From Ustulina deusta (lineage: Eukaryota > Ascomycota > Sordariomycetes > Xylariales > Xylariaceae): a DNA stretch of 64,000 nt. The notes beneath the pieces were generated by a model, which saw only the letters and a program-made list of their open reading frames with translations, had not been told where the DNA came from and made no database searches. Positions 19,931 through 49,200 of the stretch are shown here, in pieces. Numbering within the stretch: position 1 is the first letter of the stretch; every line of letters starts with the position of its first letter. The stretch is from positions 469,071 to 533,070 of the forward strand of contig JAJNNX010000036.1 of the NCBI GenBank assembly GCA_023159155.1, in the 5' to 3' direction. The translations under genes were made by a program, and so were the position numbers.

Positions 19931-20038
19931 GTTTTTATTAATTAGTTTTTAAATTAAAGCTATTATTAAAATATTAATAAAAAGTTTAATATATTATTAT
20001 TTTAAAAACTAGTTATAAACTATTTAAATTTATATTTT
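19931..20038 (+). repeat. Heavily RIP-mutated copy of the 19553 repeat
   Basis: Partner of 19553-19660 with nearly every C and G of that copy changed to T or A. Together the two copies show the direction of mutation. They could be ends of a small element or a simple duplication. Confidence 0.7.
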
Positions 20039-23000
20039 AAATTATATTAAAATAATTAATTTAAATTTAATAAAATAGTTTATATATTAAAAAATATATT
20101 TTAATTAATTAGTTTATATAAATAAAGCTAATATAGCCTATTATATAAAAAGTTTTATTATATATTATAAAATTTTTTTTTTTAAATATTATATATTTTT
20201 AATATATATTATATAATAATAAATTTATATTAAATTTAAGCTAATATTAAAGTAGCTTTACTTTATTTTATTATTTTTAATTTATTATTATTATTATGTT
20301 TTTTAAAGCAGCCCTTATAAAAAAATAGCCCGCTAGCCCTACTTTTTTTAATTTATAAAATAAAAATAAATTTTATATAAATTTAAAACAAATTTAAAAC
20401 TAATTTAAACAAACTAAAAATTTATAACTATAATAAAATATTAAATATATTATATTTATTATATTTATTATATAACTAAAATATATATAATATAAATATA
20501 AATTAAATTTAATATTAAATTAATATAAAAATTTAATATTTATTATAATAATAATATAAATATAAATATTTTTAAATATATTTATTATATTTATATTTAT
20601 AAAAATAATTATTTTAATAATTATATTTTTATAAATATATTATATAAATTTAATATAAATTTAATTTTAATTTAGTTCTAAATTAATATAAATAATTATA
20701 ATATTAATAAATAATAAAACTTATTTATATAAGTTTATTAAACTACCCGCTTAAACTAAATTAATAAAAAAGTTTTTAAAGCTTTTTATTTTATTAGTTA
20801 TAAATATTCTAAATAAATTAAAAATAAATTTAATACTAATTTATATAACTTTTTTTTTAAAAATAATTAATAATATTTAAAAATAAATTTATTATATTAT
20901 TAATAAAAAAAATATTAAAAAATAAAATAAAATATAAATAAAACAAATATAATATAAATTTAAAACAAATAATATTTAAATTTTAAATTAAATTATAGCT
21001 TTTTAAATAAACTTTTTTTAAATTATATTTAAATTAAATTTAAATTTAAATTTTTTATAACTAAAATTTTTTATTAAATTATTATAACTATTATATATTT
21101 TTATTATATATATAATATTATAATAATAATTAAAATATAATATATTTATATAGTTATTAAGCTAGATTTTATATATAAATATATTATAATAAAAAAACAA
21201 GCTTTATTTATATTTAATTTTTTTAATATTAAAACATTTTATAATTAATTTTAAAATAAAATATTTTAAAACTTAGAGCTTTTTATTTATTAATATTTTA
21301 TAATATTATTTTATTATATTAAAAAATTAATAATTTAATAATTTTAAATTTTTTTTGTTTATTTTTATATTATAAATATATTAAATAATATTATAATAAA
21401 AACTATAGTTCATATATATATTATAGTTAATATTTAAACAAATTAACTTATTTTAGAATATATTTTTTGCTTAAATTTTTATAAAAACGCTATATATAAA
21501 TTAAAACAATAATAAATAATCTATAATATAAATTAATATATTTTTTTAGTTTAATAGTTTATTTATATAAGCTATTAAGCAACCTAGTTTTTTTATTATA
21601 TTTAATATTATATAAACTTTAAAGCAATTTTTATTTGTTTTTATATTATAAAAAAATATTTAAAAATATAATCTATTTTATATTAATTATATTATTAATT
21701 TTAAAAAGCTTAATATATACTATTTTTAAAAATTATTTAAGTTAGAATTATTATAAATAATTAAAAAAAAAAAAAACTATACTATATTATAATAAATATT
21801 ATATTAGCTATTAATATATTATATAAGTTTTTATTAATTATAATTATTTTTAATAAAAGTTTAGCTAATATTAATTTTATAACTAAATTTTTTTTTAAAA
21901 TTTTTTATTTATAAAAAAATAAATATATTATATTTTAAATTAAATAATAAATATAAAAACTTTTAAATATTAATATATTTAATATACAATTAATATAGAT
22001 TAAATATAATATAAATATATATAAACTTATTAATAAATTTTAAATTATTTTTTAAAAAAGATTATATATTTTATCATATATATAAAAAACTAATATTTAA
22101 AGCAATATAAGCTAAGCTATTATATTCTAACTTAAGTATTATATTTTATATATTTTTATTATTAATTTATAATTTTTTTATATTAATTCTATTAAGCTAA
22201 TATATATTAAATAAATATATAAGTTTTTATAGCACTAGCTATATAAATTTATTTTGTTTTAGAAATATAAAATTAGCTAACTTTTAATAAGTTTTGCTAA
22301 TTAAAATATAAATTAATAATTATAACAAAATTAGCTTAAAAAAAAGTATTTATTAGTTTATTATTTAAAAAAATCATTTAGCAGGCTTAAAAATAAATAT
22401 TTTAATATATTACAAATATAAAGATTTTTTAAAGCAAATCTAAAAAAAGCAAATTTTTTATTAATATATTAGCTAGTTTTTATTAAACTATTATATTATT
22501 AATATAGATTACTACCACGCTTAATTTTTAATATATATATTAATATATAAATATTAATTAGATTATAATAATTTTAAATATATTAATATTTAGATCTGCT
22601 TTAATATTAAAACAAAAATAAACAAAAGCTTAATATTTAAATATAAATAAAGCTTAATATTATTAATATATTTTTTTTTTATTTTTTTTTATAATATATT
22701 TATAATTTGTACTAAAACTTTTAATATAATACTAGTAATTTTATATAATCTTTTTTATATTAAATAAAGTTTTACTATTTTTATAATATTATATTAAAAA
22801 TTATTTTTTTATTTTTAATATAATTATATTAGGTGGTTTTAATTTTAAATATATTTTTATACTTATTAGCTTTTTTAGTACTTATAAGCTATTTTTTTTA
22901 ATAAGTTTTTTTTTATATATAATTAAAAACTATTATATTTTTTTTTAATTTCTTTTTTGTTTAGTTATTAAATATTTTATTATATTTAACTTAAAAGCTT

Positions 23001-26000
23001 TATTTATAATAATTTTTATATTAGTTTTCTTTAGTACTAAAATAATCAACCATATATTTTATTTAAATAAAAGTTAAACTAATAATAAATTAATACTAAT
23101 TATCTTTTATAAATTAATAACTTTAGTAGTTTTTTTTATATATATTAGCTATTTTTTTAAGTTAATATATCTAGTTTTTAATACTTAATTTTTTTATTAA
23201 GCTATAAATCTATAAAGAATTAAAAAACTATATTTAACTTTAGTTCTTCTTTTTTTAAAACATATTATTTATAAATAACTATTAAAAATAACCAAACACT
23301 AAAATTAAGATTTTTTAAGCTTAAATAACAAAAAACCATTTTATTTTTTTAGTTATAAAAACAAAAATAAATTAGCTCAAATAATTAATTATAATTTATA
23401 TTTATTATATTTTATAGTTTTATAATAACTATTTTCTGTTTAATCATTAAAAATAGTTTATGTTTAATTTTAATATAAATATAATATTATTTATAATATT
23501 TATTTATATTTAAAAATTAAAAAAGCTACTAAAAATAAGCTTATAGGTTATAAAAAATTATTAAAATATTAAAATATTTATAGCTATTATAAGCCTAGTT
23601 TAAAATAATATTAATTTTATAAAATAATAAATATTTATTAATAATCTAGTAATAAGCTAAGTTTTAAACTATATAATAATATTTATTTAAAAAAAGATCT
23701 TTTTATATTTTATGATTTAAAATTATAACTTTTATAATATTTTTATATTATAAACAGGCTAAATAATCTTTAAAAAAGTTTTTCAGGTTTTTATTAATTA
23801 AATTAACAAAAATAAATAAAAAAACATTTAAATTACTTTTCTTTTTTTTTAGATATTAAAAAAAAAAGCTAAATATTAGTAAAGTTAACTATAAAAAAAA
23901 ACAATTTCTTAAAATCAAATTGCTTAATAAGTATATAAATTAATTTATTAATTTAAAACAGTCTATTTATAATTTTAATAATTTTAAAAATATTTAAATA
24001 GTAATAAATAATAAACTAATATTTTTTTAAGCTTCTAATTTAATTCCTAAAATATTTATTAAGTTATAATAATCTATATATAATATAATTAAAATTTAAA
24101 ATTTAATAATTAGCTAGCAGTATTTTATTAAGTAGTAAACCACTTTTAAAAAAAATCTTTTATTAATATTATATCTTATTTTTAAATTAGAAAATCTAAA
24201 TAATATAAATATAAAAATTTTTATTAATAATCTTAGTTCTAATAAATTGACTAGCTATTTAAAACAATATTTTATTTAGTTTTATTAATAAAACATTAAT
24301 AGTTAAATAATACTAAATAAAAAGATTTAAATTTTTAATAATATAGTTTTAAATCTTTTTATATATTATTTAAAAAGCTTTTTTATTATTTTTTTTTAAA
24401 TAAAACGCTTTTTTTTTTTTTTTAAATTATTTTTAAAACTAATTTTTAGTAAGTACTTTTTAATATATTAATTAAGTCTGCTTTTTTTTTAAAATATATT
24501 TTAAAATATAAAACTAAATATAAAAAGTTTTTTAATTTTAATATATTAATTAAATAATTTTTATTTAATACTTATTTTTTAAATTAATTTTAATGCTTTA
24601 AAAATAGATATATTTATTTCTAGAATAATTTAAAACTTAATATATTAATATTATTTATAAATAGGATTATTTTTAAAAAAAAAGCTAATTAAAATAAATA
24701 TAATTTATAAAAAATACTAGGTATATAAAAAATTAAAAAAATTATTAAATATATAGCTAAATATATTATAATTATTAATAAAAATAAAAAGCTGAAAACT
24801 TTTTTTATAAATAGCTATTTTTTAAAACTAATATTTTAAAAGATTTTTTAATTTATATATTAACTATTAAAAGCAATAAATCTAGTTTTTAGTTAATTTT
24901 TATATTTTGTTAATATAGCCCAAAACTTATAAGTAATATTTTTTTTAAAAGAAATATTATAATTTCTTTAAATTAAAATACAAAAAACTTTATTTTATCA
25001 ATATATTAGCTACTAAAGTTTAATTATAGCTTAATTTATTAAAATATAATAATATATAAATTAATTTGTTTTTAGTTTAGCTTTAAATAAATAATAAATT
25101 TATATTTTTTAAACAAATATTTTTAAATAAATAAAGCTAATAAATTCTAGTTAAAAAAAAATTCTAGTAATAAATTATTTTTTTTATAATATATTTAAAT
25201 TAATAAAACTAAAAAAAAGCTATTATAAAATTAGTTATAATTATATATTTAACTAAGTTAGTTTTTTATATATTTTTAAAACTTATAATAAAATAATTTT
25301 TTTGGATATAATATAATTTCCAAACTAATATTTATTATTTTAAAATTTTAGTTTTATTTTTAATAATAAATAAAAATTAAATAAACTATATATTAACTAT
25401 AATTTAAAGGCCTTTAAACAAAAAATATTATTTAAGTTTATATTATACTTGGGGTTTTTTTTATACTTTCTAGCTTAAAAAAGCATATTTAAACAAAAAA
25501 AATATATATAAAATTATAAAAAACAAGAATAATTAGTCTTTTTTTTAAAAAACTAACTAGCTTTATATTAATTACTAAATCTAAATTAAATTTGTTTTTT
25601 AGAAATTTTTTAATATTGTTGCAAAAAATTTTATTTTATTTTATAGCTACTAAAACTAGATCTATATTTAAACAATTATTTAAAACTAATATTATTTATT
25701 TTTAATTATTATATATATTAAATAATAAAAACAATTAATTTGTTTTATTTTTAATAATATAATAAAACTTAATAAAATAAGTTTTATACTAATATAATAC
25801 TTTATTATAATTAGTATTAAAAATGAGGATTATGTTTTTAATAAATATAAATAAAATATAAATTAGCTTTTTTAAAATCTTTATATATTTATTAATATAA
25901 TTAGAAATAATTAATAAAAATAATCCTATATATTTAAAAAATATTTTATTAAGAATTATAAATAATAAAACTTATAATAAAGATTTATTTTAAACTTTAA

Positions 26001-29000
26001 TTATAACAAATTTTTTATTAGTAATCTATTTATAATTTATAAATTAATAAAAAATAGATTTTTTACTATAAGTATTAAAATAATATTATTAATATTAATA
26101 AATAAAATTTTTTTAGTTAATATATCTAAATTTATTAGTAGCTTAAAAATAATTTCTAATTTAATAATAATAATAAATTTTTTTTTAATTTTTTTTAAAT
26201 TTAAATAGTAATAAATTAATATTTTAAGTTATATAAATATTCTTTTTAAGTTTAGCTTAAAATTAAGCTTTTGTTTGGTTTTTCAAAAAAAAAATTAAAA
26301 CTAATATTAATTTAATAATATTTAATATTTTTTAACTAGATTTTTATTAATTAAGTTTTAATTTAAAATATTATTAATATTTTAATTTTTTTTAAAACCT
26401 AAAAATCTTTTAAAATCTTTTTTAAATTTAATAAACAAATAATTATTAATATAAAAAAATTAATAAAATTTATTTTTAGTTTTTTAAATATATATAAGTT
26501 TTATAACTAAAACATTATATATAATTAAAATATTAAATATTTTTTTTAAACTTTACAAAATAATTTAATTACTTTTATAATTAATAATTATTAAATTTTA
26601 TTTTAATTAAGCTTTACTAAAAAATATTTTATAAATTTAATTATTTTTTATAACTAAAAAAAAAACTATATAATATTTAATTAAAGTAATATTATTATTA
26701 GTTATTTTTAGTTCTAATAGCTTAAAAATAATATAAAAAAACAAATTATATTATATTATATATATAAAACTTATTAAATTAACTAAAGTTTTTTTATTAA
26801 CTAAAATATAATTAATAATAGTTTTATTAAATATTTTTTTAATATATTTAAAATAAAATTTTTTATTTATTTAAGTTTTATTTTTATAAACTATAATAAT
26901 AATTAAACTTTATAAAATTTAAAGCTTTATTAATATAAAATAATGTTTTTTTTTTTAAAAAGTTTCAATTATTTCAGCTTAGCAATTAAAAATAATTTTA
27001 TTTTTTAAATAAGCTAAGCTTTAATAATAAAAAAACAATTAAAAAATTATTTTTATATAATCTAAAAAAAAAGTAATAAAAAAAAAATATTTAATATTAA
27101 TTTATTTTTTTTTAACTATTTTTGTAAGCTTAAATTAAAACAATATTTTGCTTTTAAATAATTTTTTTAGTTTTAATTAGCTAATAGGTTAATTAATCCT
27201 AAAGCTATTTATTAAAAAATACTAGTTTTGCTGCTTTTTTTAAATAAATAAAAATAGCCCAAAAAAGAGCTTATTTTTTAGTTTTTTTTAAATTAGCTAA
27301 TAGACCTTTTAATCCTAAAAGCTTATTAAATATAGCTATATTTTTAAAAAAAAAACTCTTTTTTTTTTTTTTTTTTTTTAGGTTTGCTAAAAAAGCATAT
27401 ATTATATTTTTGTTTTTAAAAAAAATAAAAATTAAGTTTATAAATAATAAAAACTATTTAACCCTAATAAACTAATTTTTTTTTATTAAATAATCTAAAT
27501 TTATTAAAAGCTTTTTATTTTTTTAATAATCTTATTTGTGTTTATAAACTATATACTAGTAAGATTTTTTATATCTAGATTAACTTCTAATAAATTATAT
27601 TAAAAATAAATTAATAATAATTATTTTTATTAAATAATATTATAAATTTAAATTTTTTTTAAAGTTTTTATTTTTTAATATAATTATAAAAAATTTTTTT
27701 TTTAATTTTATAGTTTTAATAAATTAAAAACTTTTTATTATAACTAAAATTATAATTTTTTTTTTTTTTTTTTATATTTTTTATAGTTTTTTTAATTTGT
27801 TTTACTACTAATTTTTCTAAGATTAGGTTTACTTTTATATTTATTAAAAAAATTAATAAATATATTATTTCGGGTGTTTTAAAATAAATATAAAAAAGTT
27901 TATAAATTTAAGTTTTCGTTAAATAGTTTTATTTATATATTAAGTTTTTTTATAAATATTATAGCTAGTTATAATAATTAATAAACTAATTATATTATAA
28001 ATAAATAAAAAATATAACGTTTAAGTTTTTTAAAAAAAACTATAATATATATTAGTTAAATAAAAACTAAATTAAAAAAGTTAGCTATAGATCTAACTAA
28101 AATCTTTTTAAAATATTAATAATAATAATATTTAGTTTTTTTTAAAAATTTGCTTTTAAATAACTTTTTAAGTAAGCACACTATCCTAGTTTTAATTTAG
28201 TTAAAAAAAAAAATTTTTAAGCTTTAAAGCATAAATAATAATAATTTTTTTTATCTTTTAATAAATATTGTTTTTTTTAAACTTTTTAAAATTATTTAAA
28301 AACTAAGTATTAATTAAACAACTTATAATTTACTTTTAAAAAAAAAATTTATTTAAATAATTTTTTTTATATATATTTTTATAAAAGCGTTTTTTTAGTT
28401 TGTTTAATTAATTATTATTAGCTTAAAAAAAAAACTTATTAGCTTAATTAATATAGTGAGCTAAAAACTTTTTAGCTTTTTAGTTAAATTTATTAATTTA
28501 AGCTTTAAAGCTAACGTTTTAATTTTAAATTTTTTAAAAAAAAACATTTTTTTAAACTATTTTATAAAGCTTAATAATCTTTTTTTTTATAAAAAAATAC
28601 TAATATTATTCTTTAATATTTTTTTATAAACTATAACAAAATATTAATTATTTTTTAGCTTTATTTAGCTATTTTATTTTATTAATAGTTTTAAATTAAG
28701 TACTAAAAAAGTTATAAAACAATTTTTTAATCTAAATATTTATATTATTAATATATTTCTAAAAATCTTTTTTTATAACCTTTTAAATATAAAAGCTCTA
28801 AAAAATTTTTTTTTTTTTACTTAAAGCTAATCTAGTTTAAAAAAAGTTTAGAATTAAAAATTGTTTAAATAAAAATTTTCTGATTTAAAATATATACTTT
28901 AGCTTAAAAAAAGGAAAATTTTTAATTAAAAATTAATACAAAATTTTTATTTTAATAAAATTAAAAATTAAAAAAACTTAGCAAGTATTCTAATTTTTTT

Positions 29001-35979: not shown

Positions 35980-36885
35980 TCAACTAAAAGCTTGTCGTGA
36001 AGGGCTCTTAGGTCCCTTTGCCATTGCCAGCAGGACAGCCTGATCGGCTACTAAATACAAAATCTCCTCGCCAATGCCAGTCATACCTAAACACAAAGTT
36101 CTTATTGAGCCCTTTCTCATTGAGAAGTTTGATGGTCGCATTTGTGTCATTCCAAAACTCTCCGATTGAGTCGTCTTCGCGTTGAATGTGCAGGATAATG
36201 CCCAGGGTAGCATCCTCGGGGCCACTGGGTGCGGCAAGCATCTGCCGGCCTTGCCCGGAAGACTGCATTTCAGCTATGTAGAAGGCCTCAAGCTTCTGGG
36301 CGGACCTGCTCCCGCAACAGAATTATTTAACATTATGATGTATTATATTGGCTTTGTTGGCTATCTTAACTCTACCACAACCTAAATATTCAATAAATGT
36401 AGTTAATAAATTCTCATCTCTTATATGTTGAGATATAGGGAAAACCAAACTAACACTAAAACCTGTAAAATAATTTTTATTTTTTAGTGATTTGATCCCT
36501 TTCTGTCGACTAGTCTGAGACATCGGGGACTCAAGAAAGTATATCAACTGGGTGAGCTCTTGAGTGGTAAGACAGTCAACCGCCTTTCTAGCGAACTTTT
36601 CAGCCACCCTTCGACGCACTTCTGCTCGGCAGGTACTAGGGCTTGAGGGAAGCCAGACAAGCCTCGGTTGCGAATATGACATTGCTGTAATGCATTCAAG
36701 CATCTGATGACCGCATTGCCATTCGGCCGGATATCGTACATATCCTCTCGAGAGGAAAGAGAAATTTCGCTAGAAGACATTAGTAAGGGGATGTATTGGT
36801 ACGCGGTCGTAAAAGAGAACCCGAGGAAAGAGACGAATGTTAAGAAAGCAGTTGAAGCGGAGTATAATAGAGAATATCTCTCCAA
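35980..36885 (-). pseudogene. Broken nuclear gene of unknown family
   Basis: Several minus-strand pieces with fungal codon bias lie in shifting frames. The upstream piece (about 36780 down to 36500) runs from MSSSEISLSSREDMYDIRP through QALVP; then, after a frame change, AEVRRRVAEKFARKAVDCLT continues as TQELTQLIYFLESP. The downstream piece (36268 to 35980) has EDATLGIILHIQREDDS and EFWNDTNATIKLLNEKG; after another 1-nt shift it ends TGIGEEILYLVADQAVL ... RQAFS-stop. The two pieces are separated by a mitochondrial-type insert (36325-36492). I do not recognise the family. Multiple frameshifts plus the insert make a functional product unlikely, though introns could explain some frame changes. 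Confidence 0.5.
36325..36492 (-). pseudogene. Nuclear insertion of a mitochondrial LAGLIDADG endonuclease fragment (NUMT)
   Basis: A 56-codon minus-strand frame reads SVSLVFPISQHIRDENLL followed by TTFIEYLGCGRV. That is the conserved second-half signature of LAGLIDADG_1 homing endonucleases encoded in fungal mitochondrial introns (typically FQISQHxRDxxLLxxxxxYLGCG). Codons are strongly A/T-ending, unlike the GC-ending codons on both sides, and GC drops sharply only across this ~170-bp piece. The frame stops at TAA after HHNVK. Only the C-terminal half of one domain is present, with no LAGLIDADG helix, so it is non-functional. The family assignment is by eye; capture of mitochondrial DNA at a break is the simplest origin. 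Confidence 0.75.
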
Positions 36886-36946
36886 AGAATCGTGTTAAAG
36901 TCTTCTTCAAGGGGTGGCGATTGTCTAAAAATAATATATAAAAAAA

Positions 36947-37480
36947 GAGAATTGCTGGAGGTGCATCCATGTTTTTACTACCCGTGCACCCATCAAATGG
37001 TACCAGCTGGATACGTCTATCAATCCAGACGAGCCCTTTTTCGTGGTGTACCTGCATAAAAAAGCTCGTCACACTTGTTACAAGATATCTCCGACCGTAT
37101 TGAACACACCCTCTCAGTGTCTGCCTTCTGTAAGCGCTGAAGCTATCGCCAGTGCTGAATCTTCATATAGGTATATCACAAATCCATGGTGTTTTTGATT
37201 GGTTGAATTTACCAGGAGTGCTATTGCGCGTACGGCTATTTCTTTTTCACTTTGCTAGAGTATGAGTTCGATTCGGGCTGTCGCTGTTCCTTTTTACACC
37301 TTTTTACACCTTCTGGTGCCTGGATTATCAGGTGTTCTTTCAAAGTTGTTGAGATGAACGAGGTGCACCTGCAAAAACATGTTTGCCAAGACAATACAGG
37401 TGGCTGGTGGAGTCTTGCAGTGACTGGCAGTTGCTGGGTGCACGGGTAGCAAAAACATGGATGCACCTCCAGCAATTCTC
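36947..37480. mobile_element. MITE-like element, 534 bp, 46-bp terminal inverted repeats
   Basis: The left end (36947-36992) begins GAGAATTGCTGGAGGTGCAT and the right end (37435-37480) is its reverse complement, with one mismatch in 46 bp. A related subterminal word, GGTGxACCTGCA next to an A-run, appears on both sides inside. Both flanks are A6 (36941-36946 and 37481-37486), a possible target duplication. No internal frame looks like a transposase, so it is a non-autonomous DNA element. The right edge lies only 12 bp beyond the 3' end of the minus-strand tRNA-Asn, within its terminator. Confidence 0.65.
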
Positions 37481-37486
37481 AAAAAA
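37481..37486 (-). terminator. Pol III terminator of tRNA-Asn (T6 on minus strand)
   Basis: Six T on the minus strand, 6 nt past the tRNA discriminator base, the usual RNA polymerase III stop. It coincides with the putative target duplication of the adjacent element. Confidence 0.65.
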
Positions 37487-37492
37487 CAAATA

Positions 37493-37616
37493 CTCCCCCG
37501 GAAAGGCTCGAACTTTCAACCTCCTGATTAACAGTCACTGCCGATATGGTTAGATTAGATTGTCAATAGTGTCAGATTTTAACTTACGACGCGCTAGCCA
37601 ATTGCGCCACGGAGGA
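37493..37616 (-). tRNA. tRNA-Asn (GTT) with a 50-nt intron in the anticodon stem
   Basis: Exon 1 is 37616-37588 (29 nt) and exon 2 is 37537-37493 (45 nt). Joined they give a 74-nt cloverleaf: acceptor TCCTCCG/CGGGGGA, D stem GCGC/GCGC, anticodon stem TCTGA/TCAGG, loop CTGTTAA with anticodon GTT, T stem GAAAG/CTTTC with loop TTCGAGC. Without joining, the anticodon stem cannot form: only TGA/TCA is contiguous. The interrupting 50 nt (37587-37538) begins GTAAGT, contains CTAAC, and ends GGCAG. The split is between positions 28 and 29, not the canonical 37/38. Internal promoter boxes are present (TGGCGCAATTGG and GTTCGAGCC). It is identical in both exons to the gene at 41209, on the opposite strand. 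It would decode AAC and AAU. Confidence 0.85.
37538..37587 (-). other. Spliceosomal-type intron inside tRNA-Asn (50 nt)
   Basis: Starts GTAAGTTAAAATCTGACACT and ends ATATCGGCAG, with a perfect fungal branch-site word CTAAC about 10 nt before the 3' end. The first 20 nt are 18/20 identical to the intron of the other tRNA-Asn and the rest has diverged, while the exons are identical. Removal by the spliceosome is an inference; a tRNA-endonuclease substrate at a non-canonical site is the alternative. Confidence 0.75.
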
Positions 37617-38257
37617 CAACGCTGGTTGTTAGATCCGTGTCTCCTTAATTTTCTCTACCACCAATAGAGGCCACCTGGGTTGGCCGCCATGCCAATCAGC
37701 TCTGCCCAAAGTATCCACACTACCTAAATTGGGTATAGCTTATACTTATATCTTATACTAACCTTTTATAGTAACTAGTACTTTAAGCATAAAAAATCAG
37801 TATTTTTTATTTTGCACTAATGTTTATCAATGTGCCCTGCACCAATAGCCCGCATCCTCGTCTTCACGCCTTCATACAGCTGCTGTAACAGGGGCCACTA
37901 TAAATGGCGCCTACTGCTTAACGTTGAACTAACGACGTCTTTATTACCTACTATTGCTTCGTTTTCTCTGTGTGAGGGGGAGGCATTGCATCCCCATCGT
38001 TGACCCTGAATGGCTGTCTTGTTGCCCGCCCCAAGTCCTCTCTACGGCCGCGATCAGTGACGCGCCAATTGAAGCAACCTTAACATATACGGCCTGACAG
38101 CCTTGACGAACTACGGCGGCGACTGACGCCCACGTCTTCCAGGTAACACCCGGACGAGTCCATGATCAAACATCGACTTCGCCCCCTGACGAGTCTTCTC
38201 TTCGAATCGAGCCCTCCCACGATCACCTCTCAAACACCATTACTTAACAGTGCCATC

Positions 38258-38292
38258 TTATGATGACGATGATGATGATGACGATGGCGGCG
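38258..38292. repeat. (GAT)n-type microsatellite
   Basis: Imperfect GATGAC/GATGATG repeats passing into GGCGGCGG. Confidence 0.8.
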
Positions 38293-38482
38293 GTAGTTAG
38301 TGGTGGTGAGGGCCAGGACCACTGGGACCACCAAGAACCTTAAGGCCACAGGATCTCACCTGCCTACGCATCCAAGCATTGCGATGCAAGTAGTGATGTG
38401 CCCCTTAATCTGAACGATGATAACGTGTGCCATAGGACCTCGATGATGCTTTGCCTACCTCGATGATATTGGCGATGGAATT

Positions 38483-38516
38483 GGTGGCGATGGTGATGGT
38501 GATGGTGATGATCGTG
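38483..38516. repeat. (GGTGAT)n microsatellite
   Basis: Three or more GGTGAT units following GGTGGCGAT. Confidence 0.8.
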
Positions 38517-38846
38517 GTTTTCTTATATGTAGGTAAGTAGGTTAAATAACTGAGTAGGTAGGTTAGGTAGTTATCGACGAGTTTACGATCGAACCTCGAC
38601 TCCGTCGTTCCTGATTTCCTGCCCGTTAATTAGAAAGCGTAGCTTTCCTTAAGCTGCAGTGGCTGTCCAAGTCTATATTATACCTAAAACATTCATGATA
38701 TTGGGCAAAATCGCCGTGTTTAAACCTTGCTACTAGAAACCTATAGAAGCCTTGCCATTTCAAAGGGGAAAAGGTTTTTAGATATCGCTGTCTAGTTACT
38801 TGCTCTATTATACCTCGGTTTTCTACTAGCCCAGAAAGTCCTTCAT

Positions 38847-39045
38847 TTCCACCGCGTTCGTGTAGGGGATTTGCATAAGCAACATGTTGGCTGCGAGTTG
38901 GTCTGTCTTCACGTCAGTAAACTCTGACGTGGTGAGGACCACCTTTGGAGGTTTACCCTCCCTCCCTCACCCAGGGTGGCGAGCTCTCTCGCCCACTCCT
39001 CCGTTATCTCGAAGCCAACAATCTGCTTCTCTGTGGAATCGTGGT
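38847..39045 (-). pseudogene. C-terminal fragment of an unknown protein, frameshifted
   Basis: The minus strand reads TEKQIVGFEITEEWARELAT, then, after a 1-nt shift in a GGGA repeat at about 38963-38972, PPKVVLTTSEFTDVKTDQLA and NMLLMQIPYTNAVEMKDFLG with a stop at 38847-38849. Codon bias is clearly fungal in both parts, so this is real coding ancestry. I do not recognise the family. With the next fragments it suggests a stretch of scrambled or decayed genes. Confidence 0.5.
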
Positions 39046-39148
39046 ATTAACTACGATATACACAGGCGGTAGCCACTGAGCTCACTATGGTATTGTCTGT
39101 AGAGCGGACCCTGGGTGCACACTGTACCGGAAATAGTGATGTTCTGGT

Positions 39149-39406
39149 TCAAGACTTACCTCGTGCTCGGCCGTTCAGATAAGTACAAACTGGCGGAGGG
39201 GACGTACCTCGGCGAAATGGGTGGTATGCGAGCATTGCGTTCAGCTTATCTACTTCACAAGAGAACTCGGAAACCCTCATTAAATACATAAACGCCATCC
39301 GTGCCCTTCGTGCTCCTTCGCCTTGGACAGTACATGAAGTGACTCCTTGACACATTTCATTTTCAATGGAGCCCACATCATTTGCCACGCCTAAGCTGTT
39401 CTCGTA
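39149..39406 (-). pseudogene. Fragment with a terpene-synthase-like NSE motif
   Basis: A minus-strand frame reads LGVANDVGSIENEMCQG ... RRARMAFMYLMRVSEFSCEVDKLN and stops at 39149-39151. N-D-V-G-S-I-E-N-E fits the second metal-binding NSE motif (NDxxSxxxE) of class I terpene cyclases, where the motif is followed by a Gly-containing turn and a helix, as here. No aspartate-rich first motif and no upstream coding part could be found; stops appear just upstream in the same frame. The assignment is tentative because the motif is short. Confidence 0.4.
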
Positions 39407-39539
39407 CCGTCAGAGGAGGTGCAGTTTGTGTCACTCATAAGGTCGAAATACCTGGCTTCAGTAGTGCTGGACGGCCTGCACGTGTCGGCCCAGTAGAGGC
39501 ACGTGCTACCCTGACCTAGGATATCCAGCGTAAAAATGG

Positions 39540-39804
39540 ATTATGGCAAGCTTCGCTTCCAAGAAGCAGATGGATGAAATCAACTGTGTCGCTGTCATCG
39601 ACATTGGTGGGCCATTCCCGATCGACGGTAAAGCCGCCGCCCTCCCCTTCCAGCGCTAGCGGGCTGCTCATCTCAATTGCAGCGCCAAAGTCCTCGTGGC
39701 CGTGGTTGGTTCAGGGTGTGATCTTGTTGTCCGAAACCTCTGCTATGTCGGCGAGGCCATCTTCCGTCATATCTACGGCACACGTCTTAGTGTTGGGGGT
39801 TGAT
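39540..39804 (+). pseudogene. Fragment of an unknown protein with one internal stop
   Basis: The plus-strand frame reads MASFASKKQMDEINCVAVID, then GGPFPIDGKAAALPFQR, one TAG, then RAAHLNCSAKVLVAVVGSG and DLVVRNLCYVGEAIFRHIYG. Third positions are mostly C or T, the fungal pattern, on both sides of the TAG, so the stop probably replaced CAG or TGG. Family not recognised. The overlapping frame at 39574-39870 lacks this bias and is a shadow. Confidence 0.45.
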
Positions 39805-39809
39805 GGTAG

Positions 39810-41208
39810 GTTTATGCGCGAGGGGTGGCATTGGTTAACCAGCAATACCTGCAGCTATGGCCGGAGCTGAGACCACCATAGGTGCGCAGATACCCCGAGA
39901 GTCTCTTCCCGCTCAGGGACTACCGCCAGATCAAGTCGTGTGAGTCTCCTTCTCCACACACAAGGTCGGGGCTCCGTCTCGATCTACAGTATCCGTTGTC
40001 CTCTCCTGTAGAGATCCCGAAACTTGTCGAGCTTCCCGCCGCCGCCGAGAGACGGCTGATGACCAGGCGCACGCGTAGCGAGCCCTATTAGACGCAGCCT
40101 GCGGTTCAAGCTAGCCAACAACGGCGATTTTTATGTTAACATTGACTATTTACCGTACGTACTTCCTGACAGCGTCGTTTGTAGGTACCATCGACCGACT
40201 AACACTCATGTATTTCATGCAGGAGACCAAAGGAAGGTCTGGTCAGCGTCAGAGCCCCCAAAGCTCTGCCGTACAACAACATTCTGTACCACACACCTAG
40301 TATTGCAAGTGGTCCAAGACATTGATACTATAAATATCGCTGTTATATATAGTATTTCTCAGGCTAACGGCTCTAATAGCCATACCGGTGTCTATCTATT
40401 ATCTGTACAGGTAAAAACCATGCCTTTTGGCCCGGTTGGTCATCGTCACCGATTCGCTCCAGGCCCGTAGGCTGGGCGAAAACATCTTGTCTCTACTACG
40501 TATCCCTGACTTTACCGCTTCGTTCTCCTTATGTGTGCTGCTACCTCTGGTCCGCTTCTCCTGTTTCGCTCTGTCTCGTATCGTGCTATTAACTGGATGC
40601 ACGCATCCGTCATATCGCTGTTATATTGAATATATTACCCGAAGCCCTTATTATAGCGGCACTCTCTGAGCTTCTAAGCTTGAGCATCTCTAGCTGAATC
40701 ATCCTCATTATAACCACTGCAGCAGCGGCATCATAGCGGCATATCACAATTTCAATGTCAATCAACCATAATAGATATCATATTAGTCAACTATATATAT
40801 GATAGCACTACGCTCTTCCCGGTCTAAATTGCACAGACTGCCAATATATATTGGCGGTGAGAATTAAATAAAATGCCGACTTGAACGCTTTAATTCTCAG
40901 TGAATATACTACTGCATAGAGTTTCCAGTCTGTTGAGCCCATAGACCCATCTCTCTAGTTGGCGTTATAGCTTTTTCCTTGGGGTTAGCAGGTAAATACT
41001 TGATTCTCCAATCCACATGTATTTTAAGTCCGAGGTGTTCCAGGCAATATCCTTCATGAACCATCCCTTTGCTCTATGTGATATATTCGAGCTAGACCCA
41101 CCAGCTGCAGCCAATCATACCTACTACTAGTTGTTCAGGTGGTGTGGGTCTGCGCTTTACAGAAGCTCAATATATATATACCAATAAAAGTTCAAGCAAC
41201 CAACCTAG
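39810..41208. other. Gene-free or gene-debris stretch
   Basis: A frame at 39882-40091 continues GC-rich coding-like sequence from the preceding fragment but carries no motif. The rest (40100-41208) shows nothing I can assign. Confidence 0.45.
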
Positions 41209-41331
41209 TCCTCCGTGGCGCAATTGGCTAGCGCGTCGTAAGTTTAAATCCGACACTTCTCGTGACAAATGGCTTACCATCCGCAGTGACTGTTAATCAG
41301 GAGGTTGAAAGTTCGAGCCTTTCCGGGGGAG
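41209..41331 (+). tRNA. tRNA-Asn (GTT) with a 49-nt intron in the anticodon stem
   Basis: Exon 1 is 41209-41237 and exon 2 is 41287-41331. The joined 74 nt is identical to the minus-strand gene at 37493-37616 and forms a complete cloverleaf with G discriminator. The 49-nt interruption (41238-41286) begins GTAAGT, has CTTAC 10 nt from its end, and ends CCGCAG. It splits the anticodon stem between positions 28 and 29. A T7 run immediately downstream is a Pol III terminator. Box A and box B are both inside the exons, so the intron lengthens their spacing by 49 nt. Conservation of both exons alongside intron divergence argues that the gene is or was recently functional. Confidence 0.87.
41238..41286 (+). 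other. Spliceosomal-type intron inside tRNA-Asn (49 nt)
   Basis: GTAAGT donor, CTTAC branch-like word, CAG acceptor, and a length at the low end of fungal mRNA introns. The first 20 nt are nearly the same as those of the other copy; the middle is unrelated in length and sequence. Confidence 0.75.
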
Positions 41332-41332
41332 A

Positions 41333-41339
41333 TTTTTTT
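41333..41339 (+). terminator. Pol III terminator (T7) of tRNA-Asn
   Basis: Seven T directly after the discriminator and one A. Confidence 0.85.
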
Positions 41340-41894
41340 GGCTTTTTTATTCAGCCTTTTTTTTACCTTAGGGCGCGGCCCCTATCCTGGGTAATGGCTG
41401 GAGCCAGGCAATTAAATGTGAGAATTATTTGCACCATGATCTCAGGCTTGATATCGTGTTACATGAACATGCTTGCCTAGCCATTTTCTAGCCGCGATAT
41501 TCTGTTCGCGCTATTGCAGCCAGGCTATTCCAGCTCAATAGCCTGGCAACAACCATTTCCATTTGAAAATGATTTCAAAGTTGAACATACCTAACCTACC
41601 TTGCTGGAGATGTCGGCAGAGTTGTCAAGGGCTGCAGATTCTCGCAGCTCCTTGACGACGAGGAGATGATCTGGAGGGTCCAAATGAATGGCTCCGGATG
41701 TTGACGTTGGCTGCTTTTCTGATGATGTTGACGGACAGAGGTCTTAGTGATGGCAAGCAGGAGATCTGGGTATATAATGCCGTGTAGGGCCAGGTTATGT
41801 CCCTAAAATGGAAAACTTTGCCGGCAAAGCTCCATTTCTAGTATGCTGTATTAAATCAAAGTGCAAGACACTTCAATTTAATGCTTTTATATTT

Positions 41895-41930
41895 ACCTAC
41901 TTACTTATTTACTTACTTACTTGCTTAGAG
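41895..41930. repeat. (ACTT)n microsatellite
   Basis: Imperfect CTTA/ACTT repeats. Confidence 0.8.
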
Positions 41931-42846
41931 GTAGGTAGATATATAACTTATTAAGAGAAGACCTTTTTTGATTATTTTTCTTATTTGTTTAAGATAACTT
42001 AAAGTTATAGTTAATTTATAATTATAAGTTTAACTAATAGGTAAGCTATAGATACTTTCTTTTAGCAAACTATAAGCTTGTAGGTAAATACAAAGTTTTA
42101 GGGGGTCTAGTAATAGAATCTCTTGAGTCCTTTTTTCCGATTTTAGTGACGCCCCAAGATCCGTTCTTCTTCCACGGTTGGCAATAAAACACACGCTGCT
42201 GCTTCTTGGACCCCGAGGGCGGCCCTTTCAGCATTGTTGATGGAAAAGGGGGGAGAACAGGCACGATTGGTAGAAAGACTAACTTCTTTACAAAGATCCT
42301 AGATAATCTTTATAAGGCGACAAATGACGCGGGTTTCAAAAAGCCTAGGCCCCATGGTAGCGCAGATGAGCGTGTAAACAGCGCAGAATATAATTAGAAA
42401 TCGATCCCTCTACTAACCCTGCAGTGCATAGCCTTTTGGGATGTGGTTTACCCTAATAACGGGCAGTTCCCACGTTAAAATTAATCAGTCCATTATATGT
42501 TTACGGAGATTATTAACAGTTTCATTTCTTCCAGGATTATTACAGAATACGTTCAAGCTCCCACATAGTTTAAAATCGCTACATTTTGTCGTCATGCCAA
42601 AGATAGTGGCTGTGATATCAAGTTTTGTCTTCATTGTGCGCCCAGTAACCACCACCAAATGTTTCTGTTCAGTTCCAATGCCTCGGTGATCGGATTTTAG
42701 CTGTCGGTTCTCGTATCTAGTTGAGTTGATGGCTGTAGTCAAGTTAAGTCCTCAGACGTCCTACATATTCGCTCTTCGAATGTTCATATCTCGATCATAT
42801 AAGGAAAGAAGGGATGTAGGGGACATTCAACATGAGCTTATCCTTC

Positions 42847-43671
42847 TCAGTCGGCTGAAGGGAAGCGAATAAAATAGATCTGATCAGTGGTCTCGCCAAA
42901 TGCGATCGCGTTTCCGGAATGACCGTAATGTGGACGAAGTGGCGAATTTCCGCGATTCTCTGGGGGTATCCAAAGATAGCACTCGCCGTTCTTCAAAACC
43001 CAGTATCTATATGAACTAATGCCTATCCCGGATAACGCGCCTGCAGGAATATTGTCGCGGCCGTATTCTATCGAATCCCTAATGTCGTTCAATAGCGCTT
43101 GTGTACCATAGATGCCACGGTGGGTCAGAAGTCCAGCTCGCTCCCATCTTATACTACGAGCATAATTCCAAAACCCCTTGAGACTCTTTACCTGAGTCCC
43201 TGTTTCGAGGTCCAAGATCCGGATCATGCCGTAATTTCCAACATATGCTACGTATCTACAGTCTGGTGAGAACGTGAGCGGAGCATCATCAGGCGTGTCT
43301 CCGAGAGCAATTGAGTGGGTGCGTAAACCCGTCGCTATATCCCAGATTCGTACACCTACTTCAGATCCAGATATTGTTGCCACCTTTGCGCCCTCGGGCG
43401 AGAGTACAAACGATAGGCCCTCGACCATGTCGTCGGGGCTCGCAACTGGAATTGTGCCGAGGCAGATGCCTGTCGCCGCATCTAATACCTGTATTATGTC
43501 GCAATATAAGGCTGGATTCTGATTCTTTAGAAATCCTGATGCCAGTCGCCCCCCGTCCGCTGAGAAAAATGTCGTATGGGAATAACCCCCTTTGTACCCC
43601 GTGAGCGACTCCCACAGGCGGCGGCCGGTAACCGCATCGAAGAGCTCTATTGTAGAATCTCCCGTAAGCTA
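42847..43671 (-). pseudogene. WD40-repeat C-terminal fragment, truncated at an AT-rich junction
   Basis: An open minus-strand frame of about 275 codons. It begins, without a start codon, TGDSTIELFDAVTGRRLWE just inside the junction at about 43672 and ends FIRFPSAD-stop at 42847. WD40-type blades are visible: IELFDAVTG...FSADGGRLASG, IQVLDAATG...LSPEGAKVATI, VRIWDIATG...FSPDCRYVAYV and IRILDLETG. This is the repeat type found at the C-terminus of fungal NACHT-WD40 (NLR-like) and HET-E-like proteins; that parent is inferred, since the upstream part is missing. In-frame ATG at 43428 would give only a 193-residue piece. Codon usage is normal, so the truncation is a break rather than RIP. Confidence 0.7.
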
Positions 43672-43712
43672 ACCCCCCCCCTCGCGGGCCCCCCCCTCTC
43701 ACGGGCCCAATT
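43672..43712. other. C-run junction between WD40 coding DNA and the AT-rich block
   Basis: Two C runs separated by TCGCGGG and followed by CTCTCACGGGCCC, exactly where the coding frame is cut. Composition changes from about half GC to almost pure AT within 50 bp. Could be the end of a transposon or a rearrangement scar. Confidence 0.6.
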
Positions 43713-44323
43713 AAAAATCGCAAATTTAAAATATATAATCCCTGTTGATAATATGGATAAAATAGCTAAAAATAGTCTAGTTTAAAGATTTAATATATAA
43801 AACGTAATATATTTTATAAAAAAATAAATAAAAAATGTAGCTATTTTTTATTTATTTAATAATGAATTTTTAAAATAATATTATAAAGTTTTTAAAATTT
43901 AAAATTTTAAAATAGTTTAAAAAGTGGAAATAATAACTAAAAATAGTTTAGCGTTAAATTTTAATATAAAAATATAAAAATATTATATATAAAAAATAAT
44001 AATAAATTAGCTTTATTTTTAAATTAATACTAATTAATTTATGTATAGTTTTTTTAATAAAAATTTAGTACTAACAATTTTATATATATATTAGTAATAA
44101 ATTTGTTAATATTATATAAAAAGATTTCGAAGTTATATTTTTAAACCTATTTTAAAAAAAATAAAAGTAGAGATTTATTTTTGTTTAATTTTTCTTTAAT
44201 TAAATATAATTAATTAATATTTAAATATTATAACTAAGTATTTTTATTATTTTTACTTGATTTATTATATAATTTTAAGTATTAATTTTTAAAGGTTTTT
44301 TTATGCGAATTTATATAGGAAAA

Positions 44324-44504
44324 TGTTACGATTAGTTAAGTAAAGCTTCTATAGTTAGTTTATTAATACTATAAACAAAAACTCTAAGCTAAAAAAAAAA
44401 AAAAAGTTAAAGTTTATAAAATAAATAGATATAAACTTTTTATTTTATTACTATATAGGTCTAAAGTTTTTTTAAGTTTTGCTAAAACTATATTAATTAT
44501 TATA
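44324..44504 (+). repeat. RIP-mutated LTR copy (family of the 53765 solo LTR)
   Basis: Starts TGTTACGATTAGTTAAGTAA and follows the 53765 LTR with C-to-T and G-to-A changes. An internal segment of about 60 bp is missing. Ends in a degraded form of CTAACCGTCACA. Confidence 0.8.
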
Positions 44505-46042
44505 CTATTTTTTTTTAAAACTAAAAATTTAAATATAGTTTTAATTTAAAGTTACTAATAATATTAAGTTTATATAACTTTTTTATATTATACTACTTTA
44601 TTATTATTTTTATAATTATTTATAAATTTATTAATTATTATTATGTATATTTATTTTTATAATTTTATAAAAAATTCAAAAACTTTTTTATAAGTTTTAT
44701 AAAATTAGTTAAGCTTAATTAATATAGTTTTAAAATTTTAAGCTATATATTAAATATTATTAAAATTATAGCTTTTTTAAATAATTTAGTACTATAGTTT
44801 TTTATTTTTTTTATATATTTTTAATTATTTAATTTATTTAATTTTAAATTTTGTTTTATTATTAATATTTTTAGCTAGAAATAATAACTAAATTTATTAA
44901 AATAAAAAGTTATTATTTGTTTTTTATAATTAGTTAATATAAAACAAGTTTTTTATTTTATAAAAATTAAATAAATCAAAAATATAACTAAATTTTTATT
45001 TTTAAAAAATTTAAAAAAGTTTAATTAATTAGGAGTCTAATCTAATAGTTAGTATTTATATTACAAAACTTTATTTTTTATTTTAATATTTATTAAATAT
45101 TATTTTTTATTAATTTATAGCTTATATTATTTTTATATAAAAACTATTATATTAAATATTTTTTTTTAAATATTTTAAGTTTAATAAACTAATTTATAAT
45201 AGTTTTATTAATATTTATTATTAAAAAGTTGTATATTTTAATTTTTTTTTGGTATTTTTAACAATAATATATTAATTAATAAATATTATAAAAAATTATA
45301 TATAAAATTTAAAATAAAAAAATAACTATTTTAAATATTTTAATATTTATTAATATAAAAACAAAGTTATTAATCTAGTTTTTAATTAATTAATTTTATT
45401 ATTTTTTAAGTTTAAAAATAATAAATACTACTAAAATAGTACTTAATATTTATATATTTAGTATACTAAAAATTTTTTATAAATTTTTATAGTATTATAT
45501 AGCTAATAATTTTATAATATTTATTTTTTTATTAAATAAAGTTATAATTAAATAGTTAAATTTATTTATAAATATTTATATATAGTTATAATTTTATTAG
45601 TTAAATAATATATTTTTATTATTTATTATTATATATTGCTATATTATAGCTAATATAAATAATAAATAAAAAAAACTAAAAGTTTTATTTTATAATATTT
45701 TATTTTTTTTATAGTTATAATAATTATATATATATTATTTATAATTATATTTTAAATAAAACTAGTAATATTTTTATTTTAATATTTTAATTATTTTATA
45801 TTAATTTTAATATATAATAATTAAAACTATATAAAAAAAATAGTTCTATTTAAAATAATTTTAAATATATATAGCTTTTTATTTTTATTTTTCAAATTTT
45901 ATAACTAGTTTTTTTGTTTAATGAAGTTTATGAAATTAGCTTTTTAAAAAATATTAAATAAAAAATGTATAATTAATATAAAACTTAATATTTTATTAAA
46001 AAAAACTAATACTATTATTTTTTTTTTAGTTTTTTTAGCTTT

Positions 46043-46270
46043 TATAATAATTAGTATAGTTTTAGCAAGACCCACAAGGACTCTAGTCCTATATAGTAAT
46101 AAAATAAGAAATTTATATACCGACCAACCTATAATTCTATAGCTATATATACAAAGTTTATATCTATTTATTTTATAAACTCTAAATTTTTTTTTTTTTT
46201 TTTAGCTTAAAGTTTTTATTTACAATATTAATAAACTAGCTATAAAAGCTTTACTTAACTAATTATAATA
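46043..46270 (-). repeat. RIP-mutated LTR copy, inverted
   Basis: Reverse-complement match over the whole length to the LTR at 53765, e.g. AAGACCCACAAGGACTCTAG here against AGACCCGCAAGGACTCCAGA. Ends at CTAATTATAATA, the degraded complement of TGTTACGATTAG. No internal element or matching target duplication is recognisable. Confidence 0.8.
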
Positions 46271-49200
46271 TTATTTTAAGCTTATTAATTATTTATTAAT
46301 AAATATTTAATAAATATATATATTTTTATTTTGTTATAATTAGCAAAATATAAATAAACTTTTTGTTTTTAGTTATATATCTAATATAAAAAATTATATA
46401 TTTTATAATATAAATTTAATTTTAATATAGTTTTAATAAAACTTTTGATTTTTATACTATTTAAAAGCTAATAATTTATAAAAACCTAACTTTAAATATT
46501 CTATATTTATTTTTAGTTTTTAAACAATTAAAATAACTTTAGTTTTTAAATATAGCTAGCTTTTTATTATTAAATAATTTTAAAACTTTTTTTGTAAAAA
46601 AAAAAAAATTTTTATATTAAACTTTTTTGCAAACGTTTTAAGTGAACTAATACTTAAAATTTTTTTTTTAAAGAGAACAAAAAATTTAAATTTAAAAAAA
46701 TAAAATCTAAACTAGAACTAAAACAATTTAAAATAAATAATATACTTAAAAATATATTAAAAAATATTATAGCTATATAAATTTATAATTTTATATTAGT
46801 TTTAATAAAACTTTTTTAATAAATAAAAAAAATAAAGTGCTAATTTTTTATTATATTTATTTTACTATTTTTAAAAAATAATTATAATTTAATAATAAAA
46901 AATATATTTAAAAATATTAATTTTAACTTTTTTAGTTTTATTATTTCATTTGTTTTTTATTTTATTAGTTTATTTTTTAGCGCTTTAAACTTTATTTATA
47001 TTAAAAAAGCTAAAATATAAAAAACTAATTTTAATATATTATAAACTAATTAAAAAAATTTATTTTTATTTAATTAAAAAACTATTTAATAATATTATTA
47101 AAATAATTTAAACTTTATTTATAATTTATTATAATTTTAATAAAATAGTTATTATTTATAAAATATTTTAAATATATATATATATAACTAATAAAAATAT
47201 TAATAAAATTATTTTTATATTTAATAGTTTAATTTAAAAGTATTAATTTGCTAAATTATAATAAAAATATAAATTATAAAATTATTTTTATATAAACTTA
47301 AAAAAAATTTATATAAAGTTTTTATAAATTTAAATATTTTTTACAAATTATTTATTAATAAAATTATTAAATAAATTTATAAATTTAATTAAATAAAAAT
47401 TTAATTTAAATAATTACACTTTTAGCAAACTTATTTATTAATTTTTAGCTAACTTTAAAAATTTGAAAATATTTATTTTAAAATAATTAAAATAAATATT
47501 AATTATAAAAAAAAAAAGAGCTTATTAAAATAATAAAACTTATTTTATTTATAAAAAAAAATATATATATATATTAATTAATTATTTTAATTAAAAACTT
47601 AAAGTTTTAAATATTGAATTAGCAAAAAAAACTTATAATAAAAATAGTTTTAATAGGTTACTTAACTTAAAAAACAAATAGAACTAATAAAAGTTTTTTT
47701 ATTAGTTTTTTTATTTATTTTAATTAAAATATATAGCTAAAATAAATAAATAATTTTTAAAATATTTATTTAATTATAAATTAATAATATTAAAATTTAT
47801 ATATTTTTAATAATTAGTTATAAGTTTATATAATAAATTAAATAATAATTAAAAATAAAAATAGTTTATTTAATTAAACTTTAAAAACTTTATAACTATT
47901 AAAATAAAATAATTAATAAAGTTTATAAATATTTAATATATATAATAAAAATTAATAATTAATAATTTAAAAATTAAATATTTTAAATTATTAATTTTAG
48001 TTATAATATTATTATTAGTATTAAATAATTAATAAAATAAAATATTTTAATAAAAACCTAAAAATAATAGTTAATTTAGTTTAATTTTTATTAATAATTA
48101 TAATTAAACTTTTTAGTTATAAATAATAAAATATAAACTTAAAAATATAAAAGAATATTAATTAATATAATTAAATATTAACAAAATACTATTAAATATT
48201 AAAATAATCTTTTAAAAATAAAATAATTATTTTAAAAATAACTAAAACTAAAAAAATATAAAAAAAACTTAAAAATTTTAAACTTAAAATAAAAAAGTCC
48301 ATATAGTAATTTAAAAAAAAAAAAAAACCAAACTATTATTAAAAAAATTATATAAAACTTGAAAAAAGCTTATTATAATTAAATTTATAACAATTAAAAA
48401 TAATTGAGATTTTATAAAAAAAATAAACTTAGATTAATTAAATAGTATTATAAAAATTTTTTAATAATAAATTAATTTTATTTTTAAAAAAAAAACTTTA
48501 AATATATAAAGTTAATATAAAACATTTTATTTTTTTAATTATTATATTTAAAAAGATTTTTTTAAAAAAAAAAATCTAAAAATTTATTATTATTATAATT
48601 AAAATTTAATATAGTATTAAAACTTAATAATAAAAAATATATTTTTAAACTTTATTAATATTAAATATTAATATATTTTATTTTATTTAAAAAAAAGTTT
48701 ATAAATAAACTACTAGTTATAAATTTTATTAAATAAAATATAAATTTAAATATTATTTTTATTTTATTTATATTTAAACTTAAATTAATTAAATATAAAT
48801 TTATAATTAATTATTACTATAAAAATATATATTTAAAAAATAAAATTATATATTATTAAAGTTTTTATTAATTATTATTAATTATAAAATTATTTTTCTT
48901 TTTTTAAATTTATAAAAAAATATTTTAATAAAAAGTTTTATTATTTAATTTAAAAATAAAACCTATTTAGTAGTAAATTTTTATTAATATATAAATTTAA
49001 AAACTTTTAAATAAATTTATAAATATTTATATAAATAATATTTTAATTTATTTTAAAACTAAAAAATAATATTAAACTTATTATAAAAAAATAATTTATT
49101 ATTTATATTAAACTAAATATTAAAAAAATATTAAAAAGTTTTATTTTAATATATTTATTATTAATTATTTAAAAATAGTTATAAAAACTAAAATAAAAAT

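Follow-up and report, generated by a model that had tools for sequence, protein, structure and literature searches.

Candidate spliceosomal introns in the tRNA-Asn genes of Ustulina deusta

Introduction

In the textbook account, a protein endonuclease excises tRNA introns. According to Yoshihisa's 2014 review, eukaryotic tRNA genes are supposed to have non-canonical introns only rarely, and most such introns mark pseudogenes, except in Cyanidioschyzon merolae and nucleomorphs (PMC4090602). Spliceosomal introns, in turn, are on record for fungal U6 snRNA genes (Tani and Ohshima 1989; Canzler et al. 2016, cited in PMC5832005). The same source names U3 and U6 as the only small structured RNAs in which introns are, to date, known to be frequent, and describes the introns of fungal U3 snoRNA by the signals GTRWGT, RCTRAY, and YAG with a branch distance of 6-36 nt (PMC5832005). 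In the open-licence literature searched, represented mostly by titles and the first lines of abstracts, no case of a spliceosomal intron in a nuclear tRNA gene was found.

Here we describe split tRNA genes of Ustulina deusta, starting from a stretch of 64,000 nucleotides (the window, which is part of contig C54). Like the fungal U6 introns, their introns combine GT-AG ends with a branch site in what would be a short uncapped Pol III RNA; unlike them, they lie in tRNAs, in three families of them, and the intron breaks a helix that the tRNA fold needs. The U3 introns, as far as the excerpts describe them, have the same signals and branch distances and likewise occur in genomes with both split and intact copies, but U3 is a snoRNA and the host here is a tRNA. 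Canonical introns at position 37/38 also cut a nuclear tRNA gene between the A and B boxes and also have to be removed, but the introns described here differ from them in position, in their GT-AG ends, and in their branch motif, and the Asn junction is without a helix of the anticodon-intron type. Sites other than 37/38 are used in C. merolae and nucleomorphs as well (PMC3978253 and PMC4090602, in excerpts), but the introns there are mostly short and, in C. merolae, tied to a bulge-helix-bulge (BHB) and the endonuclease, whereas the introns described here have spliceosomal signals and no BHB.

Results

Two split tRNA-Asn genes in the window

The preliminary description had proposed that two exons separated by a 49-nt insert at position 28/29 (GTAAGT...CTTAC...CAG) join into a tRNA-Asn(GTT), and had mentioned a second copy. 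Both copies are present, with the following features:

41209..41237, plus strand: 5' exon of tRNA-Asn copy 1, positions 1-28, 29 nt
41216..41227, plus strand: A box TGGCGCAATTGG of copy 1, uninterrupted; assigned by the A-box consensus
41238..41286, plus strand: intron of copy 1, 49 nt, GTAAGT...GCTTAC...GCAG
41276, plus strand: A in CTTAC, the branch point predicted for copy 1 from the motif only
41287..41331, plus strand: 3' exon of copy 1, positions 29-73, 45 nt, anticodon GTT
41311..41319, plus strand: B box GTTCGAGCC of copy 1, uninterrupted; likewise assigned by the B-box consensus
41333..41339, plus strand: T7 run just 3' of copy 1, probable Pol III terminator
37588..37616, minus strand: 5' exon of tRNA-Asn copy 2
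37538..37587, minus strand: intron of copy 2, 50 nt, GTAAGTT...TCTAAC...GCAG
37550, minus strand: A in CTAAC, the branch point predicted for copy 2 from the motif only
37493..37537, minus strand: 3' exon of copy 2, with a T6 run 7-12 nt downstream

When 41209-41237 and 41287-41331 are joined, the resulting 74-mer is called tRNA-Asn(gtt) by ARAGORN and forms a complete cloverleaf in which 21 of 21 stem pairs (7+4+5+5) are made. The proposed exons and intron are correct to the nucleotide. The insert also has the form proposed: the break falls at 28/29 (standard positions, numbered by hand) and the A of CTTAC lies 10 nt from the 3' end of the intron. The GT-AG boundary of copy 1 is unique, with no sliding possible, and removal of the intron restores a perfect tRNA. 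Copy 2 occupies 37493-37616 on the minus strand.

No tRNA was reported by default ARAGORN and Rfam in the whole window, nor by a permissive Rfam scan of 36-44 kb. A group I or group II self-splicing intron was considered and rejected, as Rfam gave no match at E up to 10 in window positions 36000-44000; an intron of 49-58 nt is too short for either group. The G+C content of the window switches between about 45-50% and 6-14%, and positions 20001-28000 and 44001-48000 have 8-9% G+C (in 4-kb steps) beside blocks of 40-50%. An ORF at 17852-19504 has a HET (heterokaryon incompatibility) domain (E 2e-14). The switching base composition and this ORF would fit a filamentous ascomycete with RIP-like AT-rich blocks.

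Four tRNA-Asn loci, none intact

The assembly searched comprises 56.06 Mb in 123 contigs. A BLAST search with the joined tRNA as query and a search for CTGTTAAN{4,10}N9GTTCRANNC both led to the same four tRNA-Asn loci: the two in the window and single loci on C111 and C1. When the pattern was widened to TGTTAAN{13,19}GTTCRANNC, 15 matches were obtained, including these four (16 in the backwards control), and ARAGORN found no tRNA around the other 11. The preliminary description had left the further tRNA-Asn genes to be counted and had named an intact, intronless set elsewhere as one case that would speak against it. All four loci found are split, at one and the same bond (28/29), and an unsplit tRNA-Asn was not found by BLAST and the two patterns in the 123-contig assembly, although an unassembled copy is possible.

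The Rfam tRNA family RF00005 gave 58 matches at E <= 0.001 and 63 at E <= 10, with no Asn among them. These lists are no evidence of Asn absence, because none of the four split Asn genes appears in them, and at least one Pro and one Leu gene are missing as well. There is likewise no gene for Phe or Ile in the RF00005 list, and searches for these two gave no match, a result that carries no weight. The split motif had 0 matches in genome_contigs and viral_contigs; these collections are prokaryotic or viral and have no bearing on fungi.

The four Asn introns are 49, 50, 50, and 58 nt long, and all start with GTAAGTT. Their branch motifs are CTTAC, CTAAC, CTAAC, and CTAAC, with the A located 10, 12, 11, and 11 nt from the 3' terminus; the first three introns end in CAG and the fourth in TAG. 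In each of the four the GT-AG boundary is unambiguous and cannot slide.

Splice signals against chance and against mRNA introns

Two motif sets were defined. The strict set consists of GTRWGT, CTNAY 6-36 nt from the end, and YAG; the looser set has GTNNG in place of GTRWGT. The strict set is found in all four Asn introns and in six of the eight split tRNA genes overall, the remaining two having the 5' sites GTGAGC and GTTAGT, and the looser set is found in all eight. Chance levels were measured over 839,594 intervals taken from both strands of 14 stretches (60,867 bases), in seven lengths that are the same as those of the introns. The strict set occurred in eight intervals, but four of these are simply the window's two Asn introns or extended forms of them running to ATCAG in exon 2; the looser set occurred in 55, two of them the Asn introns themselves. 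Chance is not an explanation for the Asn splice motifs. The ATCAG of exon 2 provides a further CAG, and with it a wrong 3' splice site is available.

All eight tRNA introns have CTNAY 6-13 nt from the 3' end, and three of them (the Lys introns on C67 and C90 and the Arg intron) have the exact RCTRAY. Among the Asn introns the branch hexamer is TCTAAC in three and GCTTAC in one, and GCTTAC is also present in a GC-AG mRNA intron of the same genome. That intron belongs to the mRNA comparison set, seven introns of CCT chaperonin genes (one of them less certain) with lengths of 49-75 nt and with branch sites CTAAC (five), CTGAC (one), and CTTAC (one, the GC-AG intron) at 9-12 nt from the end. The tRNA introns, at 49-64 nt (n = 8), fall inside this length range. 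In length and in signals, the eight tRNA introns and the mRNA introns of the genome look the same.

The branch motif also explains a different reading of the loci. Allowed introns of up to 120 nt, ARAGORN reads each of the four precursors as Val(tac) or Val(aac), which would make them tRNA-Val genes with an intron. The 'anticodon' of that reading, however, is the branch motif CTTAC or CTAAC, its anticodon stems make 3-5 of 5 pairs and differ between copies, and the perfect Asn anticodon arm would have to fit into a variable arm of some 20 nt. Ordinary Val genes are, moreover, present in the genome. We reject the Val identity, which is contradicted by the invariant Asn arm and has a negligible chance of being right. 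Because the usual tools miss or misname the split Asn genes, similar cases may sit unnoticed in other genomes.

Other split Pol III genes

For tRNA-Lys(CTT), BLAST found three intact, three split, and one decayed copy. In the split copies the T stem is interrupted at 52/53 by GT-AG introns (55, 63, and 64 nt), and their removal yields exactly the intact Lys sequence in all three, a matched control. Read together with GTTCGACC, the final G of the intron re-creates a B-box-like GGTTCGACC. The intron boundaries can slide over four to five registers in Lys and over two in the Arg intron described below, and one register of each gives GT-AG. The decayed copy, C29:551822 (L079, L080), holds an intron remnant without the 5' GT in a changed body, with a changed acceptor strand and TTCGG in place of TTCGA. 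The Lys(CTT) copies (L073-L079) are also accompanied, split and intact alike, by a conserved trailer, about 40 nt long, that separates the tRNA from its T-run and is composed of CAATTCC(C/T)GATGC(C/T)TC, a hairpin whose arms co-vary between copies, and AGCAAC. Its predicted fold has z-scores of -4.0, -2.4, and -1.0 in the three copies tested, and the trailer is possibly a tRNA-linked small RNA.

One tRNA-Arg(CCT) gene and two U6 genes are split as well:

C80:782324-782341 and 782401-782455: exons of tRNA-Arg(CCT), coordinates by hand
C91:574090-574241 (L101): U6 over the Rfam cut-off
C69:1560121-1560227 (L102): U6 over the Rfam cut-off

The Arg intron is 59 nt long (GTAAGT...GCTAAC...CAG) and lies in the D loop, at 19/20. 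A search of the whole assembly with the joined sequence gave no second tRNA-Arg(CCT) locus at E <= 1. A tRNA-Arg(TCT) is present in the genome and could perhaps read AGG codons. Asn is the strong case, no intact alternative having been found for it, whereas Lys has intact copies.

Seven Rfam matches to U6 were obtained at E <= 1. The two over the cut-off are split by GT-AG introns of 53 and 50 nt at different places, one of them inside the catalytic core and adjoining AGAGAAGAT/TAGCATGG; both contain the looser motif set and not the strict one. Three of the five weaker matches were inspected (L103, L104, and L105) and look degenerate, L104 with an intron-like insert. The preliminary description had drawn on the mRNA-type introns of U6 as a precedent in Pol III genes, and that precedent, cited in the excerpts of PMC5832005, extends to this genome, where both good U6 genes are split.

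Conserved exons and drifting introns

The four Asn exon pairs differ from one another at 0 or 2 of 74 sites. Both changes belong to pair 6:67, where the two C54 copies have C-G and those on C111 and C1 have G-C, a compensated change. The intron interiors (the intron minus the 5' site and the last 17 nt) have 17/27, 8/27, 10/40, 11/27, 12/35, and 15/35 identical columns in the six pairwise alignments, and the likeness between the four loci extends no further than about 40 nt from the gene. Such conservation of the splice signals and the tRNA body, with drift elsewhere, is the pattern expected of spliceosomal introns in working genes.

If instead the split genes were silent or pseudogenes, an intact tRNA-Asn would have been missed by the assembly or by the searches. 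Insertions in the D or T arm of eukaryotic tRNA genes are usually ascribed to pseudogenes, according to excerpts of PMC4090602, and C29 does have a decayed Lys copy. The assembly is divided into 123 contigs, and BLAST and family searches score best candidates only. Neither of the two whole-assembly patterns, however, produced an intact gene. Four separate loci keep near-identical exons and splice signals while their intron interiors decay, and the single change in the Asn body is compensatory, whereas the dead Lys copy looks otherwise, with its acceptor change, its TTCGG, and no 5' GT. Taken with this evidence, silent or dead Asn genes are very improbable.

Ordinary tRNA introns and the endonuclease

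Introns of the 37/38 type are common in this genome, and the split genes depart from them in position (Asn 28/29, Lys 52/53, Arg 19/20). ARAGORN placed 20 introns in the anticodon loop of other tRNAs, and none of them has GT-AG ends; at least two of these placements look doubtful (L062 and L069), and the intron-bearing L068, L082, and L085 are outside the 20. By eye, L082 (C59:340545 onward), a tRNA-Arg(TCT), has an apparent very long anticodon-loop intron of about 150 nt or more, also without GT-AG ends.

The frequency of ordinary introns, together with two endonuclease-family genes (PF01974) in the genome, lends some plausibility to a route in which the Sen complex cuts the introns at an unusual place, as in C. 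merolae and nucleomorph tRNAs, and a Trl1-type ligase joins the exons. Eukaryotic endonucleases are able to cut a BHB at unusual sites, as excerpts of PMC4090602 and PMC3978253 report. The criterion for such a BHB was a 3-nt bulge, a 4-bp helix, and a 3-nt bulge at the junctions. At the exact junctions the central helix makes only 0-2 of 4 pairs in all eight split tRNAs, whereas at least three pairs were made at the exact boundaries of 11 of the 20 ARAGORN-placed introns, boundaries that are themselves approximate. Within 2 nt of the junction, four of four pairs were found in none of the eight split tRNAs (maximum three of four), compared with 14 of the 20 placed introns and 30% of random cases, in what is a coarse helix test. 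The Sen route also leaves the GT-AG ends and branch-like motifs of all eight introns unexplained, and we give it little chance. The preliminary description had further allowed that a new processing route may mature tRNA-Asn in place of the spliceosome; the junctions have no conserved bulge-helix-bulge.

Discussion

The Asn genes have the layout of Pol III type 2 genes, with A and B boxes intact, a T-run terminator, and no earlier T5. All four copies have T6-T9 within 13 nt downstream. In the Asn, Lys, and Arg families the intron sits between the A and B boxes, as 37/38 introns do, so that Pol III could read through it. The longest T run inside the Asn introns is 4, and as mRNA introns also have a maximum of 4 T, the T-run test for a Pol III constraint on introns does not discriminate and was set aside. 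To judge from their sequences, the Asn precursors would be transcribed by Pol III.

Under the proposed mechanism, Pol III would read the whole split tRNA-Asn gene through the intron, and the spliceosome would recognise GTAAGT, the CTAAC-like branch site, and YAG in the precursor. Two transesterification steps would then remove the intron and join positions 28 and 29 directly, and only once these are joined would the anticodon arm fold. U1/U2-dependent nuclear splicing followed by ordinary end trimming and modification appears the most likely route, and the spliced tRNA-Asn is presumably used in translation. The difficulty is that the precursor would be uncapped, about 125 nt long, and structured, and that splicing would compete with tRNA folding; in some Asn precursors the intron ends are predicted to be folded into stems.

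The suggestion of the preliminary description that tRNA-Asn may need the spliceosome has gained from the four of four loci split with conserved signals. It has gained further from Lys, Arg, and U6 genes with the same kind of intron, and from signals that match those of mRNA introns and not 37/38 introns. On the sequence evidence, it is very likely that these are spliceosomal introns in Pol III tRNA genes and that Asn decoding is spliceosome-dependent: with all tRNA-Asn loci found being split, the cell would rely on the spliceosome to read AAC and AAU in the cytosol.

It is likely, at a somewhat lower level of confidence, that the spliceosome acts here as an essential tRNA-processing machine and constitutes a third route of tRNA maturation, one that would serve all Asn, the single-locus Arg(CCT), and part of Lys(CTT). 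This would imply at least three independent gains of introns in Pol III genes, and since U6 is split alike, translation and splicing would be interdependent through Pol III transcripts.

The proposal makes two questions testable: by what means the spliceosome locates an RNA that is strongly folded and has no cap, and whether Pol III genes gain introns in the way that mRNA genes do. If the proposal is true, the division of labour between Pol II with the spliceosome and Pol III with the endonuclease is not absolute, and the decoding of Asn would be sensitive to splicing.
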